Below, in pieces: positions 660 to 18,207 of a DNA stretch of 20,102 bases. Below the pieces are notes generated by a model, which was not told the origin of the DNA, did not search any database, and saw only the letters and a list, made by a program, of their open reading frames with translations. The translations under genes and the position numbers were made by a program. Positions within the stretch are counted from its first letter, which is position 1, and every line of letters begins with the position of its first letter. The DNA comes from a virus: positions 1 to 20,102 of IMG/VR virus record IMGVR_UViG_3300023179_000633; one strand, 5' to 3'.

Positions 660-1355
660 ATGGAAATGTTCAACGTACACAGAAGGGACCTGCTAGGTTT
701 TGAAGATTACATGGACCTAAAGAAGCCGGGCTTTGGCGGACCTCTCTCTGCAATTCCATCGAGAGACGCCAAGGGTAAGTTACTGAACAAAAAGCCGAAG
801 CTTTCTCAATATCGCAGAGTCGTTGAGCGGGACCCTGCGTTTTCTCACAAGGTTTGGGACCCTACGTACAAGGCAATGACTCATGACTTGGTATACAGGC
901 AAGAGGGCAAAAAGCCATTTACCTATCCTGACCCATACCTGACTGCATATCCTACCGTTGAGATCGGAGAGGTTGATGAAAACACCAAAGTTGTTTCTTT
1001 TAATCGATTTGTGAATGAAGACTTGGACCCAAGAGACGAGGACTACGGGAAAGAAGTAGAGTATCAAGATACGGGCTACGACTTTAAAGACTATGACCTT
1101 GATTCAGAGGAAGATGGCGGATATGCGAAGGGAGAGAGCAGTTTTAAAGACGAGAAAACCGCTTACCGCCAGACGGGCGGTCGAAGCACTACTTCGCCTG
1201 AAATCAAGAGGCTGGAAGACAAATTAAGAAGCTACGAAACAAGCAGAAGAAGAGACGAATGGGACGAGTATGGACTAAATCCAGAAGAAGAGAACAATCC
1301 TTTAGGTCTGAGCAAGGAGGAAATGGATAAATTTTTAAACGATCTTAAATCTTAG
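660..1355 (+). CDS. Acidic phage protein with internal capsid-targeting-like motif
   Basis: A 231-residue protein that I cannot assign to a named family. The N-terminal half is basic and proline-rich. The second half is strongly acidic (clusters of D, E, Y and G at about 116-155) and ends in a charged helical stretch (about 180-231). At residues 113-120 it carries SFNRFVNE, close to the (S/T)(F/Y)x(Q/E)(F/Y)(L/I)xE pattern of T4 capsid-targeting sequences and of three small proteins on the minus strand of this window. That makes a prohead-core or head-associated role possible. T4 order after gp19 would give the portal (gp20), but nothing portal-like is visible here. It starts four bases after the tail tube stop, and its own stop overlaps the opposing gene's stop by four bases. 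Confidence 0.75.
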   Translation: MEMFNVHRRDLLGFEDYMDLKKPGFGGPLSAIPSRDAKGKLLNKKPKLSQYRRVVERDPAFSHKVWDPTYKAMTHDLVYRQEGKKPFTYPDPYLTAYPTVEIGEVDENTKVVSFNRFVNEDLDPRDEDYGKEVEYQDTGYDFKDYDLDSEEDGGYAKGESSFKDEKTAYRQTGGRSTTSPEIKRLEDKLRSYETSRRRDEWDEYGLNPEEENNPLGLSKEEMDKFLNDLKS

Positions 1356-3316: not shown

Positions 3317-5980
3317 ATGGGCGTCAGCCAGCTTTATCCCATAATTGATTTTACGCAGATAAGTTTTACGAATATTCCATCAGGTGCATACCTTTTAGGC
3401 TTTGACTCTAGCAATGGAATGAAGCTTTGTAAAATAGACAACACTGGCACCATAACTATCATCGAAGGAGTCGTAGGAGGTGGTGGTACTTCGGGCACCA
3501 GCGGTACTTCCGGCACTAGGGGCACTTCTGGTACTTCTGGAGCAAACGGTACTTCTGGTACTTCTGGAGCAAACGGTACTTCTGGTACTTCTGGAGCAAA
3601 CGGTACTTCTGGTACATCCGGCTCCTTAGGTACTGACGGTACTTCGGGTTCAAGCGGTACTTCTGGTACTAGGGGTACTTCAGGTTCAAGCGGATCGTCA
3701 GGAAGTTCAGGAACGGGCGGAAGCTCAGGTTCAAGCGGCACAAGCGGTTCTTCAGGAACATCAGGTAGTAGTGGTTCTTCGGGAACTAGTGGAAGCTCAG
3801 GTTCAAGCGGCACAAGCGGTTCTTCAGGAACATCAGGTAGTAGTGGTTCTTCGGGAACTTCTGGCTCTTCGGGTACAAGTGGAACCAACGGCAGCCCAGG
3901 TACATCTGGTTCTTCAGGAACTAATGGTAGCTCAGGCACAAGTGGAACATCGGGGAGTTCAGGTACACCCGGATCGTCAGGAACTTCCGGTAGCTCAGGT
4001 ACAAGCGGTAGCTCGGGTACAAGCGGTAGCTCGGGTACAAGCGGTAGCTCGGGTACAAGCGGTAGTTCTGGCACTAGTGGAACGTCTGGCTCAAGCGGAA
4101 CCAGTGGAACGTCTGGCTCAAGTGGAACATCGGGAACCTCTGGCTCAAGCGGAACAAGCGGTACATCGGGTAGCTCTGGAACATCAGGTAGCTCTGGAAC
4201 CAGTGGAACGTCAGGTAGCTCAGGAACGTCGGGTAGTAGCGGAACTAGTGGTACTTCAGGAACAGATGGTACTTCAGGATCTAGTGGAACAGATGGCACT
4301 AGTGGAACAGATGGAACTTCGGGAACAGATGGCACTAGTGGAACAGATGGTACTTCAGGATCTAGTGGAACAGATGGCACTAGTGGAACAGATGGAACTT
4401 CGGGAACAGATGGCACTAGTGGAACAGATGGTACTTCGGGAACAGATGGTACTTCAGGATCTAGTGGAACAGATGGCACTAGTGGAACAGATGGAACTTC
4501 GGGAACAGATGGAACTTCAGGGACAAGTGGAACAGATGGAAGTTCTGGAACAAGCGGCACCGATGGTACTAGCGGCACCGATGGTACTAGCGGCACCGAT
4601 GGAACTAGCGGCACTAGCGGCACCGATGGTACTAGCGGCACCGATGGTACTAGCGGCACCGATGGTACTAGCGGCTCTAGCGGCACCGATGGTACTAGCG
4701 GCTCTAGCGGCACCGATGGTACTAGCGGCTCTTCAGGGTCTTCAGGATCCAGTGGAACAGACGGCACTTCGGGAACAGATGGCACTTCAGGATCTTCGGG
4801 AACAAATGGCACTTCAGGATCTAGTGGAACTAGTGGAATTAATGGTATCTCGGGTGGTGCAATTTACTATTTTAATGAGTCGGTGACACAAACACCGTAT
4901 AAAGAATTTTCCACAATACCAACCGCCGCTGCGCAACAAACAGTTACAGTAACAATTGGAGTAGGAGCAACTTCAACTATAGGATCATATCTAACACCTA
5001 CATCGGTTCCAAATGTAACTGCTATTCCTGCAGGAATCTGGTCCTTTTATTTGCATGCATATAAACAAAACGCCAATGCAAGTTTCGATATATTCTGTGA
5101 AGTCTATTCACGTACTTCTGGAGGAACAGAAACGTTACTTTTTTCAACAGACCCTGCGCCAGTAACAACAAATTCACCAAATCCATCAATGTCAATATCT
5201 GATGGATTTCAGCCAGGATACACAATTAACACTACTGATAGAATACTGGTTAAAGTAAGAGCAACGAACACCTCTAACCAGCCGCATAATATTACCTTTG
5301 TAACTGAAGGTACCGTGCATTACTCATTTGCACAAACAACATTAGGATCCGTATCTAGTACATCAGGAACCAGTGGGACTTCTGGCAGTAGCGGAAGCTC
5401 GGGAACTTCTGGCTCTTCGGGTACAAGTGGAACCAGCGGCAGCTCAGGTTCATCTGGTTCTTCAGGAACTAATGGTAGCTCAGGCACAAGTGGAACATCG
5501 GGGAGTTCAGGTTCATCCGGATCTTCAGGAACTAGTGGATCTTCGGGAACATCGGGATCTAGTGGAACTAGTGGTACTTCAGGAACAAGCGGTACTAGCG
5601 GAACTATACCTGCCTCTCTCTCCTCAAATTGCTTTGGGATCACTATAGATGGGGGCGGTTTCGCTATTACTACTGGAGTAAAGGGCTATGTACAAATACC
5701 ATACAACTGCACCATCACAGGATGGACAGTTCTTCTCGACCAAACCGGTAGTATAGTGGTGGATGTGTGGAAAGACACTTTTGCCAACTACCCACCAGTA
5801 GTAGGCGACAGTATTGCTGGCACTGAAAAACCCACAGTCTCAGGAGGCGTTTCCGCACAAGATCTCAATCTTACTACCTGGACTACGAGTGTGAGTGCTG
5901 GGGATGTAGTTGCCTTTAATGTTGACTCAGCAAGTGTAGTTACCCGGGCAACCGTTCAAGTACTTATTACACGGGTGTAA
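3317..5980 (+). CDS. Giant tail fibre with two Gly-X-Y (collagen-like) arrays
   Basis: An 887-residue fibre protein. Residues 1-56 form a short globular N-terminus that may attach to the virion. Residues 57-512 are about 152 uninterrupted Gly-X-Y triplets (mostly GTS, GSS, GTD), with only two prolines. Residues about 513-683 are a beta-rich domain (from AIYYFNESV) of a type common in phage fibres. Residues 684-761 are a second array of 26 triplets. The C-terminal domain (about 762-887; GYVQIPYNCTITGW, then VVDVWKD) is another beta-sandwich common at phage fibre tips and a likely receptor-binding or trimerisation element. Without proline the rods may be unlike classical collagen; a polyglycine-II-like bundle is an alternative. 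Ser and Thr fill nearly every X and Y position, making the rod a plausible target for O-glycosylation by the neighbouring enzyme. Virion location and receptor are inferred. Confidence 0.85.
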   Translation: MGVSQLYPIIDFTQISFTNIPSGAYLLGFDSSNGMKLCKIDNTGTITIIEGVVGGGGTSGTSGTSGTRGTSGTSGANGTSGTSGANGTSGTSGANGTSGTSGSLGTDGTSGSSGTSGTRGTSGSSGSSGSSGTGGSSGSSGTSGSSGTSGSSGSSGTSGSSGSSGTSGSSGTSGSSGSSGTSGSSGTSGTNGSPGTSGSSGTNGSSGTSGTSGSSGTPGSSGTSGSSGTSGSSGTSGSSGTSGSSGTSGSSGTSGTSGSSGTSGTSGSSGTSGTSGSSGTSGTSGSSGTSGSSGTSGTSGSSGTSGSSGTSGTSGTDGTSGSSGTDGTSGTDGTSGTDGTSGTDGTSGSSGTDGTSGTDGTSGTDGTSGTDGTSGTDGTSGSSGTDGTSGTDGTSGTDGTSGTSGTDGSSGTSGTDGTSGTDGTSGTDGTSGTSGTDGTSGTDGTSGTDGTSGSSGTDGTSGSSGTDGTSGSSGSSGSSGTDGTSGTDGTSGSSGTNGTSGSSGTSGINGISGGAIYYFNESVTQTPYKEFSTIPTAAAQQTVTVTIGVGATSTIGSYLTPTSVPNVTAIPAGIWSFYLHAYKQNANASFDIFCEVYSRTSGGTETLLFSTDPAPVTTNSPNPSMSISDGFQPGYTINTTDRILVKVRATNTSNQPHNITFVTEGTVHYSFAQTTLGSVSSTSGTSGTSGSSGSSGTSGSSGTSGTSGSSGSSGSSGTNGSSGTSGTSGSSGSSGSSGTSGSSGTSGSSGTSGTSGTSGTSGTIPASLSSNCFGITIDGGGFAITTGVKGYVQIPYNCTITGWTVLLDQTGSIVVDVWKDTFANYPPVVGDSIAGTEKPTVSGGVSAQDLNLTTWTTSVSAGDVVAFNVDSASVVTRATVQVLITRV
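3485..4852 (+). repeat. Long in-frame Gly-X-Y coding array (about 152 triplets)
   Basis: A 1368-base array of 9-base-periodic DNA with nested higher-order repeats. These include a 27-base unit (ending in a GAN triplet) three times in a row at 3521-3601; a 72-base unit repeated at 3719 and 3791; an 18-base GSSGTS unit about four times at about 3989-4062; an 81-99-base unit of GTD/GTS/GSS at about 4270, 4351 and 4450; and an 18-base GTDGTS unit repeated across about 4552-4730. Local blocks share synonymous codon choices, which points to expansion by recombination or slippage at the DNA level. Confidence 0.9.
5366..5599 (+). repeat. Short second Gly-X-Y coding array (26 triplets)
   Basis: Twenty-six Gly-X-Y triplets (GTS and GSS with one GTN) link the middle and C-terminal domains of the same fibre. 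Bases 5401-5531 are nearly identical to 3853-3983 in the first array, with about six differences by eye in 131 bases. The two arrays therefore exchanged or copied sequence recently rather than converging at the protein level. Confidence 0.9.
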
Positions 5981-8916: not shown

Positions 8917-9028
8917 CGAAGGGGCGAACTTTTCTTAAATTACCCTTAGGGATTAGCGCTACAGTCAACGATCGGCCTTAGCTGAGGGATAAAAAATGAG
9001 CAATCTAGAACTTGGATCAAGCATTTTG

Positions 9029-9042
9029 TATAAAATATAAAA
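9029..9042 (+). promoter_or_regulatory. TATA-rich element upstream of the glycosyltransferase
   Basis: The 134-base gap 8917-9050 holds no coding sequence I can support. It contains TATAAAATATAAAA, which ends eight bases before the preferred ATG at 9051. It resembles the late-promoter octamers elsewhere in the window but is not an exact NATAAATA. A short imperfect palindrome (CCTTAGCTGAGG, about 8978-8990) lacks a following T-run, so I do not call a terminator. Confidence 0.25.
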
Positions 9043-9050
9043 CTTCTTCT

Positions 9051-12000
9051 ATGATTAAAGTAAGAGCCCACACCTGTTATCTAGGCAAAACGGGCTACGC
9101 CGCCCATGCAAGGGCATTCTTTAGGGAATTATCAAAGCACGTAGAGCTAAGAGTAAGAAACTTTACTTGGGACGACGCTCCAGACTATCTAAACGAGATA
9201 GACCTTTCAGTATTAGACAAGATAACTCTAATAAACAGAGAAAACAAATACTCTGATTATCCCATGTCCTATTCTTTTCCAGACAAGGACTGGAAACATC
9301 GGGAGATTGATGGGTTTGAAGCAGAGGTCGACATAGTCTTGATGGACGCAGACCACCATTACTTTTATGAGGAGTATTCGGCTAAAACGAGGATCGCATA
9401 CACGGTTTGGGAAAGCACAGAGATTGAGGAAAATTTCTTCAATCGGTTGCTAGCGTTCGACTATCTTTGGGTAGTCACCGAGTGGCACAAGCAGGTGGCA
9501 ACGGACCAGGGATATCCAGAAAATAGGATTTTTGTGGTAAACGAAGGAGTAAATGAAGAATTTTTTGAGGACTCAAGCTTTCCTAAAAACAGTCCATTTA
9601 GATTTATGTTTTTTGGCAGGTGGGATTACAGAAAAGCTGTGCCAGAGATAATAGGATCTTTTCTGGAGGCCTTTCCAGATGAAAAGGTTGAACTAATCCT
9701 GAGCGCAGACAATCCTTTCTCGGTAGACGGGTTTAACTCTACTGAAGAACGTCTGACGCACTATGGATTCACAGACTCTCGTATAAAAGTAGAGCATTTT
9801 TTAAGTAGGGAAGAGTACGTGAACTACATTAAATCCGGAGATGTGTTGATTACTTGCGCTCGTAGCGAAGGCTGGAACATACCGCTAATAGAGGCGATGG
9901 CGGCAGGCACGCCAGTCACCTATTCGGACTGGGGAGCACAGCTAGAATTCGCAAGAGGCAAGGGCACCCCGATAAAGATATTAGAGGAGCGACCGGCAAG
10001 GATAGGTTTTGATTTGGGATTTGCCGGAAGCGCGCCTGGAAACTATGCTGAGCCTGACTTTGGAGACCTGGTAGAAAAACTGAGGGACTGTTATCTAAAC
10101 TTTGAATCTAAAAAGAGGGAGGCGGTCGGCTTTGCTAAAGAAATAAGGGAACGGTTTAGCTGGGAAAAGGTCGGAACCGATGCTTTCCAGGTATTGAAAG
10201 AGCTGACTGCACTCTCCAGAAAAGAGAAAAAGTCGGGAGAGCTAGCGATCGTGCTGTCCCATGCAGACACCGAAGAAAAAAGGCAGCTGCTAAGAAGGAG
10301 TGTAGCTTCTCTAAAGAGCCAAGGTCTTACTGTCCTGGTCTCAACTCACATAAAGATTGACGAAGAAACTGAAAGCTTGATCGATATCGTGGTTCACGAT
10401 AAGGACAACCCGATTCTTTATCAAGAGGAATACGAGAGGCTTTCAAACACGATTCCAATCTTTTCAATGAGTTACCCAACGTTTAAACTAACGTATCCCT
10501 TCGATTATAACCACGGGTTCGCTGCCCTCAAGCTAATAAAGAACGGGCTGGCGGTTGCCTTTGCTGGCGGCTACCACACCTCGCACGTAATAAACTATGA
10601 CTATGTGATAGCTAACGAAGAAACCCTACAAAGACACAGCCTTGGGCTTGAAAATCATGAGGTGGTCGCCTATGCTTGGGACTCTGGAGAATCCATGAAT
10701 TCAGCCCTTTTTTCGGTAAGGAGCAAGGAGATGCACGATGCGCTGTCTGGGTTTTATTCTAAGGAGAGTTATTTTAGCTTTGATGAAAAGGTGATACTTG
10801 AAGACGTGCTCTATGAAATCTGTAGGGCAACCGGACTTAAGGTCTTGACTCTAGACATCGAAGAGGCAAAGCTGGGCAACGAGATAAACTGTGTGATACT
10901 TAAGACCTTTCCCTATATAGACACGGACAGGGGAAGAACCTATCTCTATCTGACCAAAGACGAAATGGATCAAAGGCATGTGATGTTGATGGGGGCAGAC
11001 TATTTGGATCCGCTCACGCTAGTTATTTCTCATGGAACAGAGGTTTCAAGGTTTACGGTGAAGGGCGGAGGAGTAAAGTTCGTTGAGATTCCAGACGAGC
11101 TACTGAGCGAGGGAATAACCCTAGAGATACCGGAACTAGGAGTAGACGTCAGGTTTGACGATTCTACCAAAGCTGCAGACTGTTTAATATTCGATCCCCA
11201 GATAGTAGAGAGACTGGATCAAGCTTATGTAGAGCCGACGATTAACATCCATTATGTAAATGGACCAGTCGTTGAGATACTAGGAAAGGGCTCGGGCAGC
11301 TACTTGGTAGAATTCATAGACTCTGAAACAGACAAAAAGATTTTTGAGTCAAGAATCAGGGTAAATCACTGGGCAAGGTGTAATCGCAAGTACTTAGTGA
11401 ACTGGTTGATTCGGGTGACCCACTCGATTACCGGTAGGGTTTGGGAGGAAAAGTTTGATCCAAGAGGAAAGAGGGTGTTTGTTTCCATCGATTCTTCAGC
11501 CCTAGGTGACACTCTGGCCTGGTTTCCACACATCTATGAATTTAAAAAGAGGCACGATTGCACGGTGATCGTGTCTACTTTCAAGAACCACCTTTATAAG
11601 GAAACCTATCCAGAGTTAGAATTTGTAGAACCGGGCAAGTCTGTGCCTGGAATATACGCGGCATATCAGATAGGCTGGTACTATGGAGGAGACAACGAAC
11701 CCAATCCAGACCATCACCCTAGGGACTTTAGAAAGGCGCCAATGCAGGCAACGGTCACGGACATATTGGGGTTAGAATACTCGAGCTTGCGACCGCGATT
11801 AGCCATACCTGATGGGCCCTCTCCATACGACACGCCGTATGTGTGTTTTGGAATACACGCGACAGCTCAGGCAAAGTACTGGAACAACCCAGAAGGCTGG
11901 CAGCAGGTGACCGACTATTTTATAAAGAGGGGAAGAAAGGTGGTGGTCTTGAGTCGAGAAGGGGATGGATACATGGGAAATAACTATCCGATAGGAGTAA

Positions 12001-12956
12001 CCCAAAAGGTAGGAGACCATTCATTAGAGAACGCGATGCTGCACCTAAAGCACTGTGAGATGTTTGTGGGTGTTAGCTCTGGACTAAGCTGGCTCTCCTG
12101 GGCAGTAGGCGCACCCACCACGATAGTAGGAGGATTTAGCTGGCCGATCACTGAGATGGAGGGAGAGTCGGTGATAAGAATATTTAAGGACGGCGTCTGC
12201 AACGGGTGCTTTAACTGGAGTAGGCTTGACCCTGGGGACTGGAACTGGTGTCCTACTCACAAGGGCACGGCTAGGCAGTTCGAATGCACAAGATCGATCT
12301 CTGCAAAAGAAGTGATAGACGAGATAGAAGTCTACTTTAATTTAGGAAGGGCGATCAAGACCGTGGAAGTGATAGTGCACGAATCTTATCAGTTGGGCAT
12401 GGTACAGAACCATCGAGAAATAGTCGATGCCGCGAAATTCGTTCGCTCCCTTGGAATCAAGAACTTTATGGAGATCGGTACCGACCAGGGAGGAACCTTT
12501 GCGATATGGAGCAAGGTCGCAAGCGAGGATGGGCTTAAGATATCTTTGGACCTGCCCCATGGAAACTTTGGAAGGAGCAGCTATGACGTTGTAAAAAGGG
12601 ACGATTACCTTAAGTCGTTGGGTTCAAATGTTCACATGATCCACGGAGACTCCCATTCGCTAGAGGCTAAGCAGAGGATCGCTGAGATACTGGGTGATCA
12701 AAAATTAGACTTCTTATTCATCGATGGAGACCACACCTACGAGGGAGTAAAGGACGACTTTGAACACTACAAGAGATACGTCAGGCCTGGAGGATGGGTA
12801 GGCTTTCATGACATAAAGGACACAGAGTTCCACCGAAGCGTAAACTGCAGGGTAGACCAGCTCTGGGCAGAACTGGAGGGAGAAAAGATAGAATACTTAG
12901 AGACGCGGCCAAACTTTGGAGCTCACTATGGAGGAATCGGCTTTATTCGGGTCTAG
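9051..12956 (+). CDS. Multi-domain glycosyltransferase: GT4 + TibC-like O-heptosyltransferase + methyltransferase
   Basis: A 1301-residue cytosolic enzyme of at least three catalytic-looking units. Residues 1-390 form a GT4-type glycosyltransferase with the signature ARSEGWNIPLIEAMAAGTP (about 270-288). Residues about 395-645 (starting ELAIVLSHADTEEK) look like a second transferase-type alpha/beta region without a name I can give. Residues about 725-1105 match autotransporter O-heptosyltransferases (TibC/Aah family, GT9-like): INIHYVNGP, NHWARCNRKY, SIDSSALGDTLAWFPHI (about 811-827), GVSSGLSWLSWAVGAPT, then Cys1050, 1053, 1067 and 1079, resembling TibC's four-Cys iron site. Residues about 1130-1301 are a class I SAM methyltransferase (MEIGTDQGG at 1140-1148, DFLFIDGDHTYEG at about 1220-1232). 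A TTG at 9012 would add 13 residues, but the ATG at 9051 fits the family better. Likely role: glycan assembly and methylation on a virion protein. DNA or host-glycan modification cannot be excluded. Confidence 0.88.
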   Translation: MIKVRAHTCYLGKTGYAAHARAFFRELSKHVELRVRNFTWDDAPDYLNEIDLSVLDKITLINRENKYSDYPMSYSFPDKDWKHREIDGFEAEVDIVLMDADHHYFYEEYSAKTRIAYTVWESTEIEENFFNRLLAFDYLWVVTEWHKQVATDQGYPENRIFVVNEGVNEEFFEDSSFPKNSPFRFMFFGRWDYRKAVPEIIGSFLEAFPDEKVELILSADNPFSVDGFNSTEERLTHYGFTDSRIKVEHFLSREEYVNYIKSGDVLITCARSEGWNIPLIEAMAAGTPVTYSDWGAQLEFARGKGTPIKILEERPARIGFDLGFAGSAPGNYAEPDFGDLVEKLRDCYLNFESKKREAVGFAKEIRERFSWEKVGTDAFQVLKELTALSRKEKKSGELAIVLSHADTEEKRQLLRRSVASLKSQGLTVLVSTHIKIDEETESLIDIVVHDKDNPILYQEEYERLSNTIPIFSMSYPTFKLTYPFDYNHGFAALKLIKNGLAVAFAGGYHTSHVINYDYVIANEETLQRHSLGLENHEVVAYAWDSGESMNSALFSVRSKEMHDALSGFYSKESYFSFDEKVILEDVLYEICRATGLKVLTLDIEEAKLGNEINCVILKTFPYIDTDRGRTYLYLTKDEMDQRHVMLMGADYLDPLTLVISHGTEVSRFTVKGGGVKFVEIPDELLSEGITLEIPELGVDVRFDDSTKAADCLIFDPQIVERLDQAYVEPTINIHYVNGPVVEILGKGSGSYLVEFIDSETDKKIFESRIRVNHWARCNRKYLVNWLIRVTHSITGRVWEEKFDPRGKRVFVSIDSSALGDTLAWFPHIYEFKKRHDCTVIVSTFKNHLYKETYPELEFVEPGKSVPGIYAAYQIGWYYGGDNEPNPDHHPRDFRKAPMQATVTDILGLEYSSLRPRLAIPDGPSPYDTPYVCFGIHATAQAKYWNNPEGWQQVTDYFIKRGRKVVVLSREGDGYMGNNYPIGVTQKVGDHSLENAMLHLKHCEMFVGVSSGLSWLSWAVGAPTTIVGGFSWPITEMEGESVIRIFKDGVCNGCFNWSRLDPGDWNWCPTHKGTARQFECTRSISAKEVIDEIEVYFNLGRAIKTVEVIVHESYQLGMVQNHREIVDAAKFVRSLGIKNFMEIGTDQGGTFAIWSKVASEDGLKISLDLPHGNFGRSSYDVVKRDDYLKSLGSNVHMIHGDSHSLEAKQRIAEILGDQKLDFLFIDGDHTYEGVKDDFEHYKRYVRPGGWVGFHDIKDTEFHRSVNCRVDQLWAELEGEKIEYLETRPNFGAHYGGIGFIRV

Positions 12957-13505: not shown

Positions 13506-13973
13506 CTACTTCTTTACTTTTTTAACGTTTGCCCAAGACTTGCTTGGGCTAGCAGCATTTACCCTGGCCATTGCCCACTGGTGGGCAGTCATTCCCGGCC
13601 TAGAACCCGAAGAATAGTATGCTCCCAGCCCCTTTATGTATTCTCTCTTTAGGTCAGCAAAGGAATAGCCTTTTTTAGTGGCAACCTTTCTTATCTTGGC
13701 CAGGGTCTCTTTGCTTAGCGTCCTGGATGAATTTGCCTCGTTGACCTTTGAGTCTTTTCTGGGCACGTTCTTCCAGCCTTTGCGGTTTCTCTCATGCTCT
13801 TCCATCTCGTCCCTAAGAGCATAGGCGGCTTCCTTGTTGCCCGACTTGAGCAGCTCCCTTGCCTTATCTAGCTTTTTGTCTCTGACGCTACCTTCGGGAG
13901 CTCTGTACTGTCTAGGGTTAGCCTTCTTTTTCTTGCTCTCAAGCAAACAATATTGATAGAACGAAAGAATCAT
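13506..13973 (-). CDS. Basic capsid-targeted internal protein candidate
   Basis: A 155-residue, strongly basic protein. It opens with MILSFYQYCLLES, which resembles the T4 capsid-targeting leader MKTYQEFIAE; the prohead protease gp21 cleaves after the final Glu of (L/I)xE. Here LLE ends at residue 12, with one extra residue relative to T4. The middle (about 25-70) is charged and helical. The C-terminal part contains LSKETLAKIRKVATKKGYSF and SRPGMTAHQWAMARVN (about 125-140), a motif I associate with small phage proteins of the DUF5824 type, though I cannot confirm the family. Basic charge and leader fit a DNA-associated internal head protein that may be injected. Its ATG overlaps the upstream stop (TAATG at 13973). 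Confidence 0.75.
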   Translation of the reverse strand: MILSFYQYCLLESKKKKANPRQYRAPEGSVRDKKLDKARELLKSGNKEAAYALRDEMEEHERNRKGWKNVPRKDSKVNEANSSRTLSKETLAKIRKVATKKGYSFADLKREYIKGLGAYYSSGSRPGMTAHQWAMARVNAASPSKSWANVKKVKK

Positions 13974-14431
13974 TAATTTTTATTTTTTTTATTAAGCTGT
14001 CTCTTTACCTCTTCCCTAACTCTTTCCATCTTCCTGGCATAGGAAGGATTGTTGTTACGATTGAAAACTATCTGCTGGTTGAGGCTACCGGTTATCTTAC
14101 GCATGTCTCCTCCCCTAGTCCTAATCAGCCAAGAGGCAAGGGCTCTTATGCCAAGGGTTTTAAACTTGCCATTAGCGTCAGGCTCATCGGAATCGTGCCA
14201 GTCTGGAGAGCTTGCAACCTTACGCTTCTCCTCTATTTTAATGGATTCCTTCAAGAACTGAGAAAAACTCATGACTCTAGATTCATTTGCAGCAGAAGCC
14301 TCTATCGCGCGTAACTGCTTGACTGCTTTTTCCTTGGTGGGGTGGGTGCCCAGCAGCTTTCGTCGACCGTTTATTTTCTTTTTAGAATAGACTTTCCAAA
14401 GCCTGCCCACGTGCTCTATCATTTCATTCAT
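13973..14431 (-). CDS. Two-part basic protein with internal capsid-targeting motif
   Basis: A 152-residue protein with two units joined by a capsid-targeting-like motif. Residues 1-50 (WKVYSKKKINGRRKLLGTH, then EKAVKQLRAIEAS) form a small basic module common in phage genomes. Residues 55-62 read SFSQFLKE, an exact fit to (S/T)(F/Y)x(Q/E)(F/Y)(L/I)xE, and are immediately preceded by Met54. The C-terminal unit (about 88-150; LASWLIRTRGGDMRKI, SLNQQIVFNRNN) is basic and helical. An internal start at 14272 would give a 99-residue product with a perfect N-terminal leader. The ATG at 14431 overlaps the upstream gene by eight bases; an ATG at 14422 just after that stop is an alternative. Likely head-associated, function unknown. 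Confidence 0.75.
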   Translation of the reverse strand: MNEMIEHVGRLWKVYSKKKINGRRKLLGTHPTKEKAVKQLRAIEASAANESRVMSFSQFLKESIKIEEKRKVASSPDWHDSDEPDANGKFKTLGIRALASWLIRTRGGDMRKITGSLNQQIVFNRNNNPSYARKMERVREEVKRQLNKKNKN

Positions 14432-14687
14432 AACTTTTAACTATTTTTAGAGTAAGGGAGCCAGTTCCCTTTATTAACCTGTGCCACTCTCCCCTAGCTA
14501 TAAAGGCCGGGGTCTCTAGGCTAGACGGTAGACGGTTTTCTAACTGTATCTTCCAGTCAGTCAATCCGACCGCCACGACCGCTCGGTCTTCGTCGTCCCG
14601 ATGCCACTTTAATTCAGTGGGATCGATAGATTCACTGAAGGTTCGAACTATCGTGTCTTTTTCTATTTCGTGGTCCCTGTAGATCAT
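14424..14687 (-). CDS. Small cupin-like phage protein
   Basis: An 87-residue protein of a type often seen in head-gene clusters of large phages. Key stretches are TFSESIDPTELKWHRDDEDR (about residues 15-34), VVAVGLTDWKIQLENRLP and ARGEWHRLIKGTGSLTLKI. The His/Asp pattern and short strands suggest a single-domain cupin-like beta-barrel, and family members are small and uncharacterised. The start at 14687 is chosen because its ATG overlaps the preceding TGA as TGATG; an in-frame ATG at 14720 would intrude 34 bases into the upstream gene. It has no clear capsid-targeting motif, unlike its neighbours. Function is unknown. Confidence 0.75.
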   Translation of the reverse strand: MIYRDHEIEKDTIVRTFSESIDPTELKWHRDDEDRAVVAVGLTDWKIQLENRLPSSLETPAFIARGEWHRLIKGTGSLTLKIVKSYE

Positions 14688-15262
14688 CACCAGTACCCAG
14701 GATAAGTTTTTCCTCCCCAAAGGTGAGCATACCGGTTAATCCTACAGGCCCAATAGCCGGCTTTAGTCTTGTCCTTCTTCTCAGCACAGTTGTGACGAGC
14801 GGCAAAGCTCTTTCTTGCCTTGGGATTAGAGACCTTGGCAGTAAGCCCGCCATGCACGTCTCCGAAGGCTATCTTCATGACCCTACCTGTCTTGGGATTT
14901 CTGACGTAAACGTGATACTTTTTTGCCCCGCCCCTCTCTGGATAGTTTAGACGAGGTTTTTTCTCCTCGTTTATTTCTAGTTCTTCTAGAGGAAAATCCA
15001 GTATCACCTTTCTTCCCATATAGAAACCCACTAGGCCAAGATCGGTCTCAGAAAGAAGTCTATGATCGACTCCGCTAAACCTCATTTTTCCAGAGTCAAA
15101 GGCATGACGTGCCTCAACCAGGATGTCTAGGTGGGCATCGCTACCTGGCCGATAGATCGATTCAAGTATAGAAAGATTGTTTGAGACGTGATACCTGATT
15201 GATTCAGAAAACATCTCTTTTTCGACTAAGTATTCCGTAAAGCTGGCTATCCTGGTTTCCAT
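14687..15262 (-). CDS. Capsid-targeted internal protein candidate with Cys/His C-terminal domain
   Basis: A 191-residue protein beginning METRIASFTEYLVEKE. SFTEYLVE at residues 7-14 is an exact match to the T4-style capsid-targeting/gp21-cleavage pattern, predicting cleavage after Glu14. Residues about 20-75 are helical and polar. The C-terminal domain (about 112-191) is basic and includes KKYHVYVRNPKTGRVMKIAF, ARKSFAARHNCAEKKDKTKA and YWACRINRYAHLW; this RHxC...YWxCR arrangement recurs in proteins of large phages and might bind metal or nucleic acid. No enzymatic function is known to me. The ATG comes nine bases after the gp15-like stop, and the gene is coupled downstream by TGATG. Confidence 0.78.
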   Translation of the reverse strand: METRIASFTEYLVEKEMFSESIRYHVSNNLSILESIYRPGSDAHLDILVEARHAFDSGKMRFSGVDHRLLSETDLGLVGFYMGRKVILDFPLEELEINEEKKPRLNYPERGGAKKYHVYVRNPKTGRVMKIAFGDVHGGLTAKVSNPKARKSFAARHNCAEKKDKTKAGYWACRINRYAHLWGGKTYPGYW

Positions 15263-15268
15263 ATATTT

Positions 15269-15276
15269 TATTTATT
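15269..15276 (-). promoter_or_regulatory. AATAAATA octamer at the gp15-like/internal-protein junction
   Basis: On the minus strand AATAAATA ends only six bases before the ATG at 15262 and overlaps the stop of the upstream gene. Twelve bases around it (AATAAATAAAAT) are identical to those before 18207. A promoter here would yield an almost leaderless mRNA. An A-rich translation-enhancing leader, as used when Shine-Dalgarno sequences are absent, is an equally good explanation. Confidence 0.3.
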
Positions 15277-16057
15277 CGCTCGGTGGAAAATCTATGTCTA
15301 TCCAAGAATCTGAAATGGTAGAGCCGGTCTGGGTCTGCCCCTGTCTAAGGTTGAACTGGTCTATCTTGTTTCCTTTGTAGAAGGTAGAATAATCGTCAAA
15401 GCTGGGGAAGTAGGTCTCAACAGAAAGAGAAAAAGTGGTGGTGACCATATTTTGATCCGAGTAGACAAAGCTATAGCTCTTTTGAAACTGGGCGTTCTCC
15501 GGAAAAGTTATCTGCATTGGAATCCTGATCCCTCTAAACTGGAAGTATCTTACTTGATTCTTATAGTAAAAATCAAAGACCCTTTCGATTATCTTAAAGG
15601 TCTTATTGATGTTATCGCTCTCTATCTTTAGAGAATAGGTCAAGCTCATCGGAAGAACGAAAAGCCTTGAAGAATAGGCCTTGATCTGTTTCTGTTCGTT
15701 TTCGTTACGGGTTTCCTGATTAAAACTACCCCTAACGAACTTGTTAGTAAGGTCTCCGGTCTTTATTTGAAAGGAGTCTAGGGTGACGATTCCCCTGGGC
15801 ATCTGTTCATAGTTGCCTTCAGCAAAGTTAGGGTAATTACAGTCAGTCGGAAGCTCCAAGAAAAAATCTTTCATAAAACCCTCGTCTCCTCCAAAGTTGT
15901 AGAAGATGGGAACCGTGTGTTCTTCCACGGAATCGCCCCTTTTCAAGTATATCACTATTTCCCGATTTAGAAGGTCCAATAAGGAAAGGGTGGCGTTTCT
16001 TAAAAAGACGTCTTGAACGTTTTGATTTCTTATGTTTTCGTTGTCTGTTCTCTTCAT
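15272..16057 (-). CDS. Tail terminator/sheath stabiliser, T4 gp15-like
   Basis: A 261-residue protein, close to T4 gp15 (272 residues), the hexameric ring that caps the finished tail and docks to the head. The order of features follows gp15: an N-terminal helix (FLRNATLSLLDLLNREIVIY, about residues 18-37), VPIFYNFGGDEGFMKDFF (about 49-66; gp15 has VPITYASKEHFMMKL), PRGIVTLDSFQI (about 87-98), LPMSLTYSLKI (about 134-144) before a helix, IRIPMQITFP and a TTFSLSVETYFPSFD strand (gp15: WSLTFEVNGWMYPP). Overall identity appears low, so the call rests on the matching segment order and length. It follows the large structural gene by five bases and leads into the small head-protein genes. Confidence 0.72.
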   Translation of the reverse strand: MKRTDNENIRNQNVQDVFLRNATLSLLDLLNREIVIYLKRGDSVEEHTVPIFYNFGGDEGFMKDFFLELPTDCNYPNFAEGNYEQMPRGIVTLDSFQIKTGDLTNKFVRGSFNQETRNENEQKQIKAYSSRLFVLPMSLTYSLKIESDNINKTFKIIERVFDFYYKNQVRYFQFRGIRIPMQITFPENAQFQKSYSFVYSDQNMVTTTFSLSVETYFPSFDDYSTFYKGNKIDQFNLRQGQTQTGSTISDSWIDIDFPPSE

Positions 16058-16062
16058 TCTCG

Positions 16063-18207
16063 TTATCTGTTTTTAGCGATGTATGGCAGACTCGTCTGAA
16101 CTCTACAGTTATCGATCAACACTAGCATAGATTCGTCCTTAAGGAACTGCTGACTTAATATAAAATCGTGCTCTTCCTCTTTCAACATCGTATTAAATAC
16201 TCTGATATTGGTTATCAGCAAGTTTGAATTAGGCAGGACGTAGTTCTGGTCGATGTCGAACTGGGTGAGAGCAAAGGAAGAAGTTCCCTGTAGGATAGGA
16301 ACAAAGTCGTTGTGGTTTATGATGTCGCTGGGGTCCTCAGCGATTCGATAGACGTAGGTAGCACACTGTAAAAACTCGTTAGATATCGAGACCACCATTG
16401 CGTGCCACTGGTCGCTCACAAAATTTGCAATCGAATAGTTCTTGAACTGTGAATTTACTCTTACTGTTAGGTTTAAAAGGCCTTCAGGTTCAGTGCTGAT
16501 GTGTCTAGCGAAGCTACCAGTTATCCTTAGTCCAGACTGACTGTCGCTGTCGAAGCCGTCGATAAAGTTGACGGGTCCTCCAGAGCCGGGCACGTTAAAT
16601 AGGCAGGTAAAGCTTAGGTTTCTATCGGTGTTGTTGTTAAACTTTGGCCTGGCTTGGTAAACGATTGCGGGCTCTCTTACCTTGAACGTAGCGATAGTTT
16701 TACCCGAGACAGTATCGGTAAGGATGTCTCGCTGGTCTTTAAAGCTAAGGTCGCGATATGCTTCTATTCGGATAAATCGGCCGGTTTCAGAGGTTCCTTG
16801 ATGGTTTGGGATGCTGTCGAATGGACCCCTGACTCGACAGTACCTAAAACTGGCGCCCTTAACGTTTTTGTCGTTTGTCAAGAGGCCGTTGTTTCTCCAA
16901 GTAATATAGAGTTGGCTACCCTCATAAGCGATTATCACGTCGTTCGGAGGAGCGGAGCGGCTGTCCAAGTTTGGCAGGGTCTCCAAGGCCTGGGTAGTGG
17001 AGAGGACGGGTGAGGTAGAGAGCAGCTCTGCAACTATATCGCTGGCTGGAACTCCGCCTAAATCATAATAGGTTTCGATCAAAGGCGCAAAATTAAAGGT
17101 GTACTTAAGGGGTCTCTGTATCACGTCTGGATGGATTGCTTTTCTTGAGGAATCAAAGGTGGTGGTTATCTTTTGGTATTGTTCTGGCATGGTACCGTCT
17201 TTGATGTCCCTTTCAACCTCTGCCCCAAATAGCTGCTCTGCATTCACTATCACGTTGTCTAAAAAGCTTCGACTTGAATCGGCAAGCAGCATATCGATGT
17301 TTGGGCTGAACTTTTTGAGCTGAACCTTCCAAAATATGGGCTCCATCATAAACCCTCTGCTCAAGTAGGATCCCTGGATCTCGTACATACGGTTCACTAG
17401 TGGAAAGTAGAGAAAGTCTCTCTTTCTTGGTTCCGAACAGGCCCCAAAGACCGACTGAAAATACTTATGATCGATGTGGATCTCAAAAGGTACTTGAAAG
17501 TCTAGGCCAAACTCGGTGAACTTTGGAGTGTTTTCAGGAAAAGCGTTGTTTGGAACCACTACCTTAACGCACTTACGATCCACGTTCCGGTATAACGTCC
17601 ATTCCTTAAAAACATAATCTCCGCTGTCAGAATCAGGTAGGGTTCTAAAATAGACTACCTGGTGTCCGTATATCTGGTTAGTAAAAAAAGAAAGGTCTTT
17701 GAACATGCTGATTGCGCTGTCCACTTCGTATGGCCTAAAGCTAGGATCGCGGTTTGCTATGATTGAGGTATAGGTCTCGTTAGAGCACTTTACCCCAGGA
17801 GAAAAAAGATTCACCGATCCTGGCGAGGCCTTGAACCTGAGCTTTATCTCGTTTACCTGGATAGTGGTGGGAAGGGCAGCGGTCGTGCCGTCGTCGTATT
17901 CATACTTTATCTCGAAATAAAAAGCGTCCTTTGCATCCAGGATCATGTTTGCAGCATCGCCCACGTTTCCTGGCTCGACTTCATACCAAAGAGACCAATC
18001 CAGCCTGTTCCTAGAATATCTTATCTTTCTAAGGAGGTAGCTTAGGTCTATTGCTCCTGGAGACTCGATAATCAAGTCTTCAATAAACTCAGTAAACTCA
18101 ATTATTCCCTTAACTGGGTCATTGGTAGAAAATATCCTAAAGTTTTTACTAAAGGTGATGGAATTGTTGTTAGGATCTATTTGGAGCTTTACGGTAGTCT
18201 GTACCAT
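16063..18207 (-). CDS. Large virion structural protein with C-terminal LamG-like lectin domain
   Basis: A 714-residue protein that is first in a seven-gene minus-strand operon. The N-terminal part (about residues 1-130) looks like beta-sandwich modules (DWSLWYEV, FYFEIKYEYDDG). The middle (about 130-430) is a long mixed region without a family I recognise. The C-terminal part (about 535-700) has the concanavalin A/laminin-G strand pattern: LSFTCLFNV, LLNLTVRVN, SDQWHAMVVSISN and LLITNIRVFNTMLKEEEHDF, the last being the usual closing strand and helix of LamG domains. Such domains in virion proteins commonly bind glycans or decorate the particle surface. The genomic position beside tail and head genes supports a tail, neck or baseplate role, but which one is open. 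Confidence 0.75.
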   Translation of the reverse strand: MVQTTVKLQIDPNNNSITFSKNFRIFSTNDPVKGIIEFTEFIEDLIIESPGAIDLSYLLRKIRYSRNRLDWSLWYEVEPGNVGDAANMILDAKDAFYFEIKYEYDDGTTAALPTTIQVNEIKLRFKASPGSVNLFSPGVKCSNETYTSIIANRDPSFRPYEVDSAISMFKDLSFFTNQIYGHQVVYFRTLPDSDSGDYVFKEWTLYRNVDRKCVKVVVPNNAFPENTPKFTEFGLDFQVPFEIHIDHKYFQSVFGACSEPRKRDFLYFPLVNRMYEIQGSYLSRGFMMEPIFWKVQLKKFSPNIDMLLADSSRSFLDNVIVNAEQLFGAEVERDIKDGTMPEQYQKITTTFDSSRKAIHPDVIQRPLKYTFNFAPLIETYYDLGGVPASDIVAELLSTSPVLSTTQALETLPNLDSRSAPPNDVIIAYEGSQLYITWRNNGLLTNDKNVKGASFRYCRVRGPFDSIPNHQGTSETGRFIRIEAYRDLSFKDQRDILTDTVSGKTIATFKVREPAIVYQARPKFNNNTDRNLSFTCLFNVPGSGGPVNFIDGFDSDSQSGLRITGSFARHISTEPEGLLNLTVRVNSQFKNYSIANFVSDQWHAMVVSISNEFLQCATYVYRIAEDPSDIINHNDFVPILQGTSSFALTQFDIDQNYVLPNSNLLITNIRVFNTMLKEEEHDFILSQQFLKDESMLVLIDNCRVQTSLPYIAKNR

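Follow-up and report, generated by a model that had tools for sequence, protein, structure and literature searches.

Why do several of the small genes next to the neck genes of this phage share a short peptide resembling a capsid-targeting sequence of T4? In T4, the internal proteins IPI, IPII and IPIII carry the capsid-targeting sequence MKTYQEFIAE, with gp21 as the protease. Injected phage proteins act earliest in infection and include anti-restriction factors such as T4 IPI; to our knowledge, they are hard to recognise outside T4, P1 and phiKZ-type phages. The window, the whole stretch of 20,102 bases that was analysed, is a viral contig fragment (IMG/VR record IMGVR_UViG_3300023179_000633) with the following features.

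16063..18207, minus strand: gp14-like head closure/neck protein (phrog_679, E = 2.3e-5)
15272..16057, minus strand: gp15-type tail sheath stabiliser (PF16724, E = 3.8e-6)
14687-15262, minus strand: ORF A, 191 aa; leader, N-terminal domain and conserved C-terminal domain matching phrog_7595, a family with no assigned function
15221..15244, minus strand: SFTEYLVE leader at residues 7-14 of A; F8/Y11 is predicted to be the targeting core, with a predicted cut after E14
15203..15211, minus strand: FSE at residues 18-20 of A, where many orthologs have (L/I)SE as the alternative site downstream; P3 is F in this copy
14424-14687, minus strand: ORF B, ~87 aa, ATG start, TGATG-coupled to A, without a leader
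13973-14431, minus strand: ORF C (152 aa), made up of a small module at the N-terminus (KVYSKKK..GTHPTKEKA..QLRAI), an internal leader and a basic body
14246..14269, minus strand: leader SFSQFLKE of C (residues 55-62), internal
13506-13973, minus strand: ORF D, 155 aa, DUF5824 domain, strongly basic
13938..13964, minus strand: leader SFYQYCLLE of D (residues 4-12), T4 spacing plus one residue
660..1355, plus strand: ORF of 231 aa with an acidic C-terminal part, carrying an internal leader
996..1019, plus strand: internal leader SFNRFVNE (residues 113-120 of the 231-aa ORF), conserved in relatives

ORFs A-D are genuine, all lie on the minus strand, and their junctions are tight: A and B overlap in TGATG, B and C by a few bases, and C and D in TAATG. 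The initial annotation described the products as mostly basic and free of a named enzymatic function, and both descriptions hold. The pI values were 9.5 for A, 10.5 for C and 10.2 for D, B being acidic (5.6), and enzyme families were absent among the profile matches of A-D. D matched DUF5824 (PF19141, E = 2.9e-9, 37.6 bits, above the curated cut-off of 25). B is a motif-free, conserved partner of A and stands outside the tagged set. Homology to the mature parts of T4 IPI-IPIII was absent among the Pfam and PHROG matches of A-D. Searching the PDB with the predicted folds (pLDDT 80 for A, 68 for D) gave no match at E < 0.001. A profile search for cargo function returned nothing for A and, for D, a single match too weak to convince; weak rows for Cren7 and for sigma factors were not taken as cargo clues. 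A search of bacterial genomes for A yielded a single distant relative. The C-terminal domain of A also occurs within far larger proteins (~400-800 aa) of phage contigs L067-L080. Elsewhere, the window encodes a long collagen-like GTSGSS repeat protein (3317-5980, 887 aa) and a 1314-aa ORF (9012-12956) that by eye resembles fused glycosyltransferase and methyltransferase parts.

The motifs of A, C and D lie precisely at the residues given in the initial annotation, and all three end as it said in LxE, of the (L/I)-x-E type (LVE, LKE and LLE, respectively). The aromatic pair occupies the positions used for targeting in T4 (T4 residues 4 and 7), as F8/Y11 in A, F56/F59 in C and F5/Y8 in D, and is retained among the leader-bearing orthologs. 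The description as T4-style leaders fits A and D, where the motif is at the extreme N-terminus; the copy of C is internal, starting at residue 55, unlike in the T4 internal proteins. A fourth copy, overlooked by the initial annotation, is the likewise internal SFNRFVNE, with the ortholog forms SFTRFINE, KFSQFVNE and SFRKFVNE. An in-frame ATG (14270-14272) immediately precedes the C leader, and three relatives have TTG there; an internal restart is possible in these cases, and we rejected it as the general cause of the internal position because the relative L015 has TTA. Of 20,000 shuffles that kept the composition of the four proteins, none gave a match in three of them and two gave a match in at least two. 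The pattern and the region were picked after the sequence had been seen, so the independent evidence is that of the relatives. Viral contigs supplied the relatives of A, C and D and those of a NUDIX protein that bears the tag, and large contigs were read whole.

We consider it probable, at roughly 0.8, that the leaders are T4-type capsid-targeting propeptides, acting like those of the T4 internal proteins. Through the aromatic pair, the newly made protein would dock on the scaffold core of the prohead. Cutting after the Glu of (L/I)xE would fall to an S77 protease of the gp21 type, and the cut cargo would remain in the head with the DNA, to be ejected into the next host cell. The basic cargo of A, C and D may bind packaged DNA or act right after entry. 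Partial support for this reading, which the initial annotation had proposed, comes from the modular leader and from the S77 protease and capsid site of related genomes.

In the initial annotation, the proposal depended on the genome encoding a gp21-type protease. Head protease genes are absent from the window, a 20-kb fragment; carried over to the relatives, the proposal withstood the search, with S77 in all six large ones. PF03420 (gp21-type S77) scored above the cut-off in 20 of the 36 relatives' records, including G001, G004, G005, G018, G020 and G029, and Gp23 was matched in nine. The S77-less records that were also checked for Gp23 lacked it too, and may therefore be fragments or diverged; a peptidase S78 search of four records without S77 found no alternative protease. 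The jumbo contig G030 (348 kb) had zero S77 or Gp23 matches despite its leader excess (26 N-terminal matches vs 5.3 after shuffling), perhaps because of strongly diverged head genes. Among close relatives, the S77 domain is part of a protein of 650-720 aa (649-677 aa in the six large ones), and of 1207 aa in Chryseobacterium phage MA9V-2. Its fusion partner is long, acidic and scaffold-like, with many (L/I)xE sites (e.g. G001:C1:55509-57485), and the one protease of close relatives scanned against PHROGs matched head maturation protease. Moreover, the capsid proteins of six relatives carry (L/I)xE at about residue 54 (TPIFE, TPLFE, GAINE, GSINE, GSLNE).

The A family provided 30 distinct leaders, in which the aromatic pair is always present since it defines the set. 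The leader Glu is missing in 12 of them (D, K, H, N, G, T or S stands in its place), all of which have (L/I)SE a few residues downstream. The 10 leaders without downstream (L/I)SE all retain the leader Glu, eight carry both sites and none lacks both (Fisher p = 0.0016, a post hoc test that ignores shared ancestry). On the tree, judged by eye, there were ~10 losses of one site and ~5 of the other. The A orthologs of G005 and G018 lack the entire leader and start with MSPNLQYH. Passages of PMC9026906 assign residues 4 and 7 of T4 IPIII to targeting and residues 8 and 10 to processing, Asp10 blocking processing and leaving targeting intact. Judged by the A sequences, targeting and cleavage seem separable; if the tag works as that of T4 does, the two would be evolving separately, and a split known from the T4 Asp10 mutants would here perhaps occur in nature. 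We must also note what counts against capsid targeting: the 12 leaders without Glu and the leaderless orthologs of A, the internal leader of C, the excess in G030 without S77 or Gp23, the lack of clear enrichment in Lak-B1 (98 kb sampled) and MaF61, and the protease-free window.

A family that often drops the Glu and keeps the aromatic pair would also suit an amphipathic N-terminal helix, serving another use such as docking on a phage organelle, on the host membrane or on degradation machinery, with the Glu incidental; so would G030, leader-rich with undetectable S77. However, every A leader has some cut-like site, Glu is retained in nearly all C-family leaders and in 18 of 18 NUDIX orthologs that have a leader, and in MA9V-2 the same leader is found on the capsid protein. 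We regard such a helix as unlikely.

The leader could instead be a virion-assembly tag for the neck or tail rather than the head core, as A-D follow the gp14 and gp15 homologs and D stands directly after C in 62 overlapping locus records. The tagged genes of the relatives are scattered over their genomes, however, with one beside the capsid gene in G005 and G018; the tagged capsid protein of MA9V-2 also speaks against a neck or tail destination, and the consensus terminates in a head-protease site. We regard the neck or tail as an unlikely destination. The protein adjoining the capsid gene (G018:C1:154089-154442 and G005:C1:7989-8342, leader SYTEFLTE) is small, repetitive and strongly basic.

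The leaders switch between unrelated bodies. The body of C follows MKNLLKYNQFLILE, MNKVLSYSEFITE, MSSIKTFTAWINE, MKHVKLFEEFLNE and others, and is leaderless in other contigs (MAKKRPEWKDSDAPD...). The body of D was found with at least five leader forms (SFDQYCLLE, TFSQFVNE, TFNQWLNE, PFSEYVSLLE, SFNEYTLNE). Since it takes ordinary leaders elsewhere, SFYQYCLLE is an equivalent form; the initial annotation had called it a less exact match, which is true of its extra residue and not of its standing. The module KVYSKKK..GTHPTKEKA with its leader is joined to the body of C here, and to that of D or to other bodies elsewhere. In the NUDIX family the spacer varies around the Glu-containing core, and leaderless homologs exist. 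Such switching is also what a mobile 5' segment would do, in which case the 5' ends would be alike through a common nucleotide element, such as a promoter, a ribosome-binding site or a recombination site, and the peptide would be a by-product. Across 46 leader genes, however, synonymous codons are mixed (TTT/TTC, eleven I/L/V codons, GAA/GAG); because they vary freely, the constraint acts on the peptide, and we rejected the nucleotide element as very improbable. The comparisons support the leader as a genuine signal that acts at the level of protein, moves as a module and recurs on many proteins of unrelated sequence.

How far the class extends was assessed with a core pattern, aromatic-x-x-aromatic-(L/I/V/M/C)-x-E at positions 2-30, counted against the mean of shuffled sequences. 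The observed and shuffled counts were 13 and 0.93 in G001, 4 and 0.77 in G004, 8 and 0.72 in G005, 14 and 1.40 in G018, 11 and 1.15 in G020, and 11 and 1.25 in G029. Rates from protein interiors predict 1.2-3.8 matches per genome, compared with the 4-14 observed in these six large relatives, and reversed N-termini gave zero matches for the main pattern. T4 as positive control had 4 matches vs 1.48, a weak excess with this pattern; as IPII and IPIII are included, the pattern recovers the known case. A 148-kb sample of the huge phage LR756504 had 11 matches vs 1.11. Clear enrichment was absent from the 98-kb sample of Lak-B1 (1 vs 0.55) and from MaF61 (2 vs 0.79), and the more distant T4-like contigs G002 and G003 showed no excess (1 and 2 matches). 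De novo pairwise clustering of N-termini was too noisy to use. The pattern is short and some matches are due to chance, such as EYAVYVVE of a topoisomerase subunit, but chance as the origin of the leader class has a negligible probability and was rejected, given the shuffle excess in six genomes, the interior rates, the reversed control, ortholog conservation and body swapping.

The consensus in the relatives is (S/T)F..F(I/L)NE, present on ~10 proteins per genome with unrelated bodies. The mature tagged proteins have pI values from 4.4 to 10.3, and basic DNA binding therefore does not unite the set; the DNA-binding role suggested by the initial annotation fits the charge of A, C and D and does not carry over to the relatives' set. 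In kind, the initial comparison with T4 is probably correct, and it reaches further than first thought. We lean towards a broader statement, with somewhat better than even odds, that Bacteroidota-type T4-like phages (~170 kb to >600 kb) mark their head cargo with a modular tag of clade-specific consensus, placed on at least 10 proteins per phage, among them enzymes such as a NUDIX hydrolase, so that the injected set of uncultured phages could be read from sequence. If the tag acts as in T4, hundreds of uncultured phages could be screened for candidate injected proteins by an N-terminal scan combined with a protease check. The mechanism itself is already known from T4, and the finding is a variant of it, with no new mechanism; its reach among Bacteroidota-type phages, a consensus specific to the clade and the placement inside proteins seem to be new. 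Searches of open-access text found no prior description of the tag in these phages.

Among named phages, the capsid matches were mostly to Bacteroidota phages (of Flavobacterium, Chryseobacterium, Tenacibaculum and Prevotella) and to PAU, whose host has been reassigned to Sphingobacterium (PMC3738902). We infer the host of the window phage from its relatives together with start regions that are rich in A and lack a clear Shine-Dalgarno sequence. MA9V-2 has five core matches vs 1.02 expected, each of them FINE or FVNE. They fall on the capsid protein (RWSEFINE near the N-terminus), on an ORF of 82 aa that lies between portal and protease, and on three further proteins. In the MA9V-1 paper, virion proteins were analysed by SDS-PAGE, without mass spectrometry. 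In PAU, 14 of the 76 proteins encoded in a 50-kb stretch carry the leader MK(T/S)(L/I)..L(Y/F)E, among them those that the depositors label as scaffolding and internal capsid protein.

Compared with the T4 capsid-targeting sequence, the leaders share the short N-terminal form, the aromatic pair three residues apart followed by a hydrophobic residue and Glu, the (L/I)xE-type end, the unrelated small cargo and, going by the genomes of the relatives, an S77 protease together with a gp23-type capsid. They differ in their consensus and in the ~10 proteins per genome, in being sometimes internal (C and ORF 660-1355) or one to two residues longer (SFYQYCLLE), in a cleavage Glu that can shift downstream, and in a protease fused to a scaffold-like part. 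In P1, an N-terminal peptide, the Dar/DarB packaging signal, likewise directs anti-restriction proteins to the head, but the Dar proteins have no N-terminal consensus (PMC9024508), unlike the leaders here. phiKZ and SPN3US (prohead protease gp175/gp245) resemble our phages in cutting many head propeptides after Glu, with redundant sites; the phiKZ motif S/A-x-E differs from (L/I)xE, and the relevant passages of PMC9026906 describe no shared aromatic leader. PAU is similar in having a shared L-x-E leader on many proteins around portal, protease and scaffold, and different in that MKT(L/I)..LYE is unlike (S/T)F..F(I/L)NE.

Several further leaders were seen in the contigs. SFTQFVNE begins a protein (G020:C1:45617-46234) that by eye is HAD-type phosphatase-like. 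In L139-L142 (immuto) and G002:C1:20069-24203, four proteins each have the leader FDLKK(F/Y)LVEN with an L-x-E end, where shuffling expects none. A MENWRKF-like leader starts four proteins of G003 (C1:98382-104117 and 169337-170818) and is possibly a further clade-specific form.
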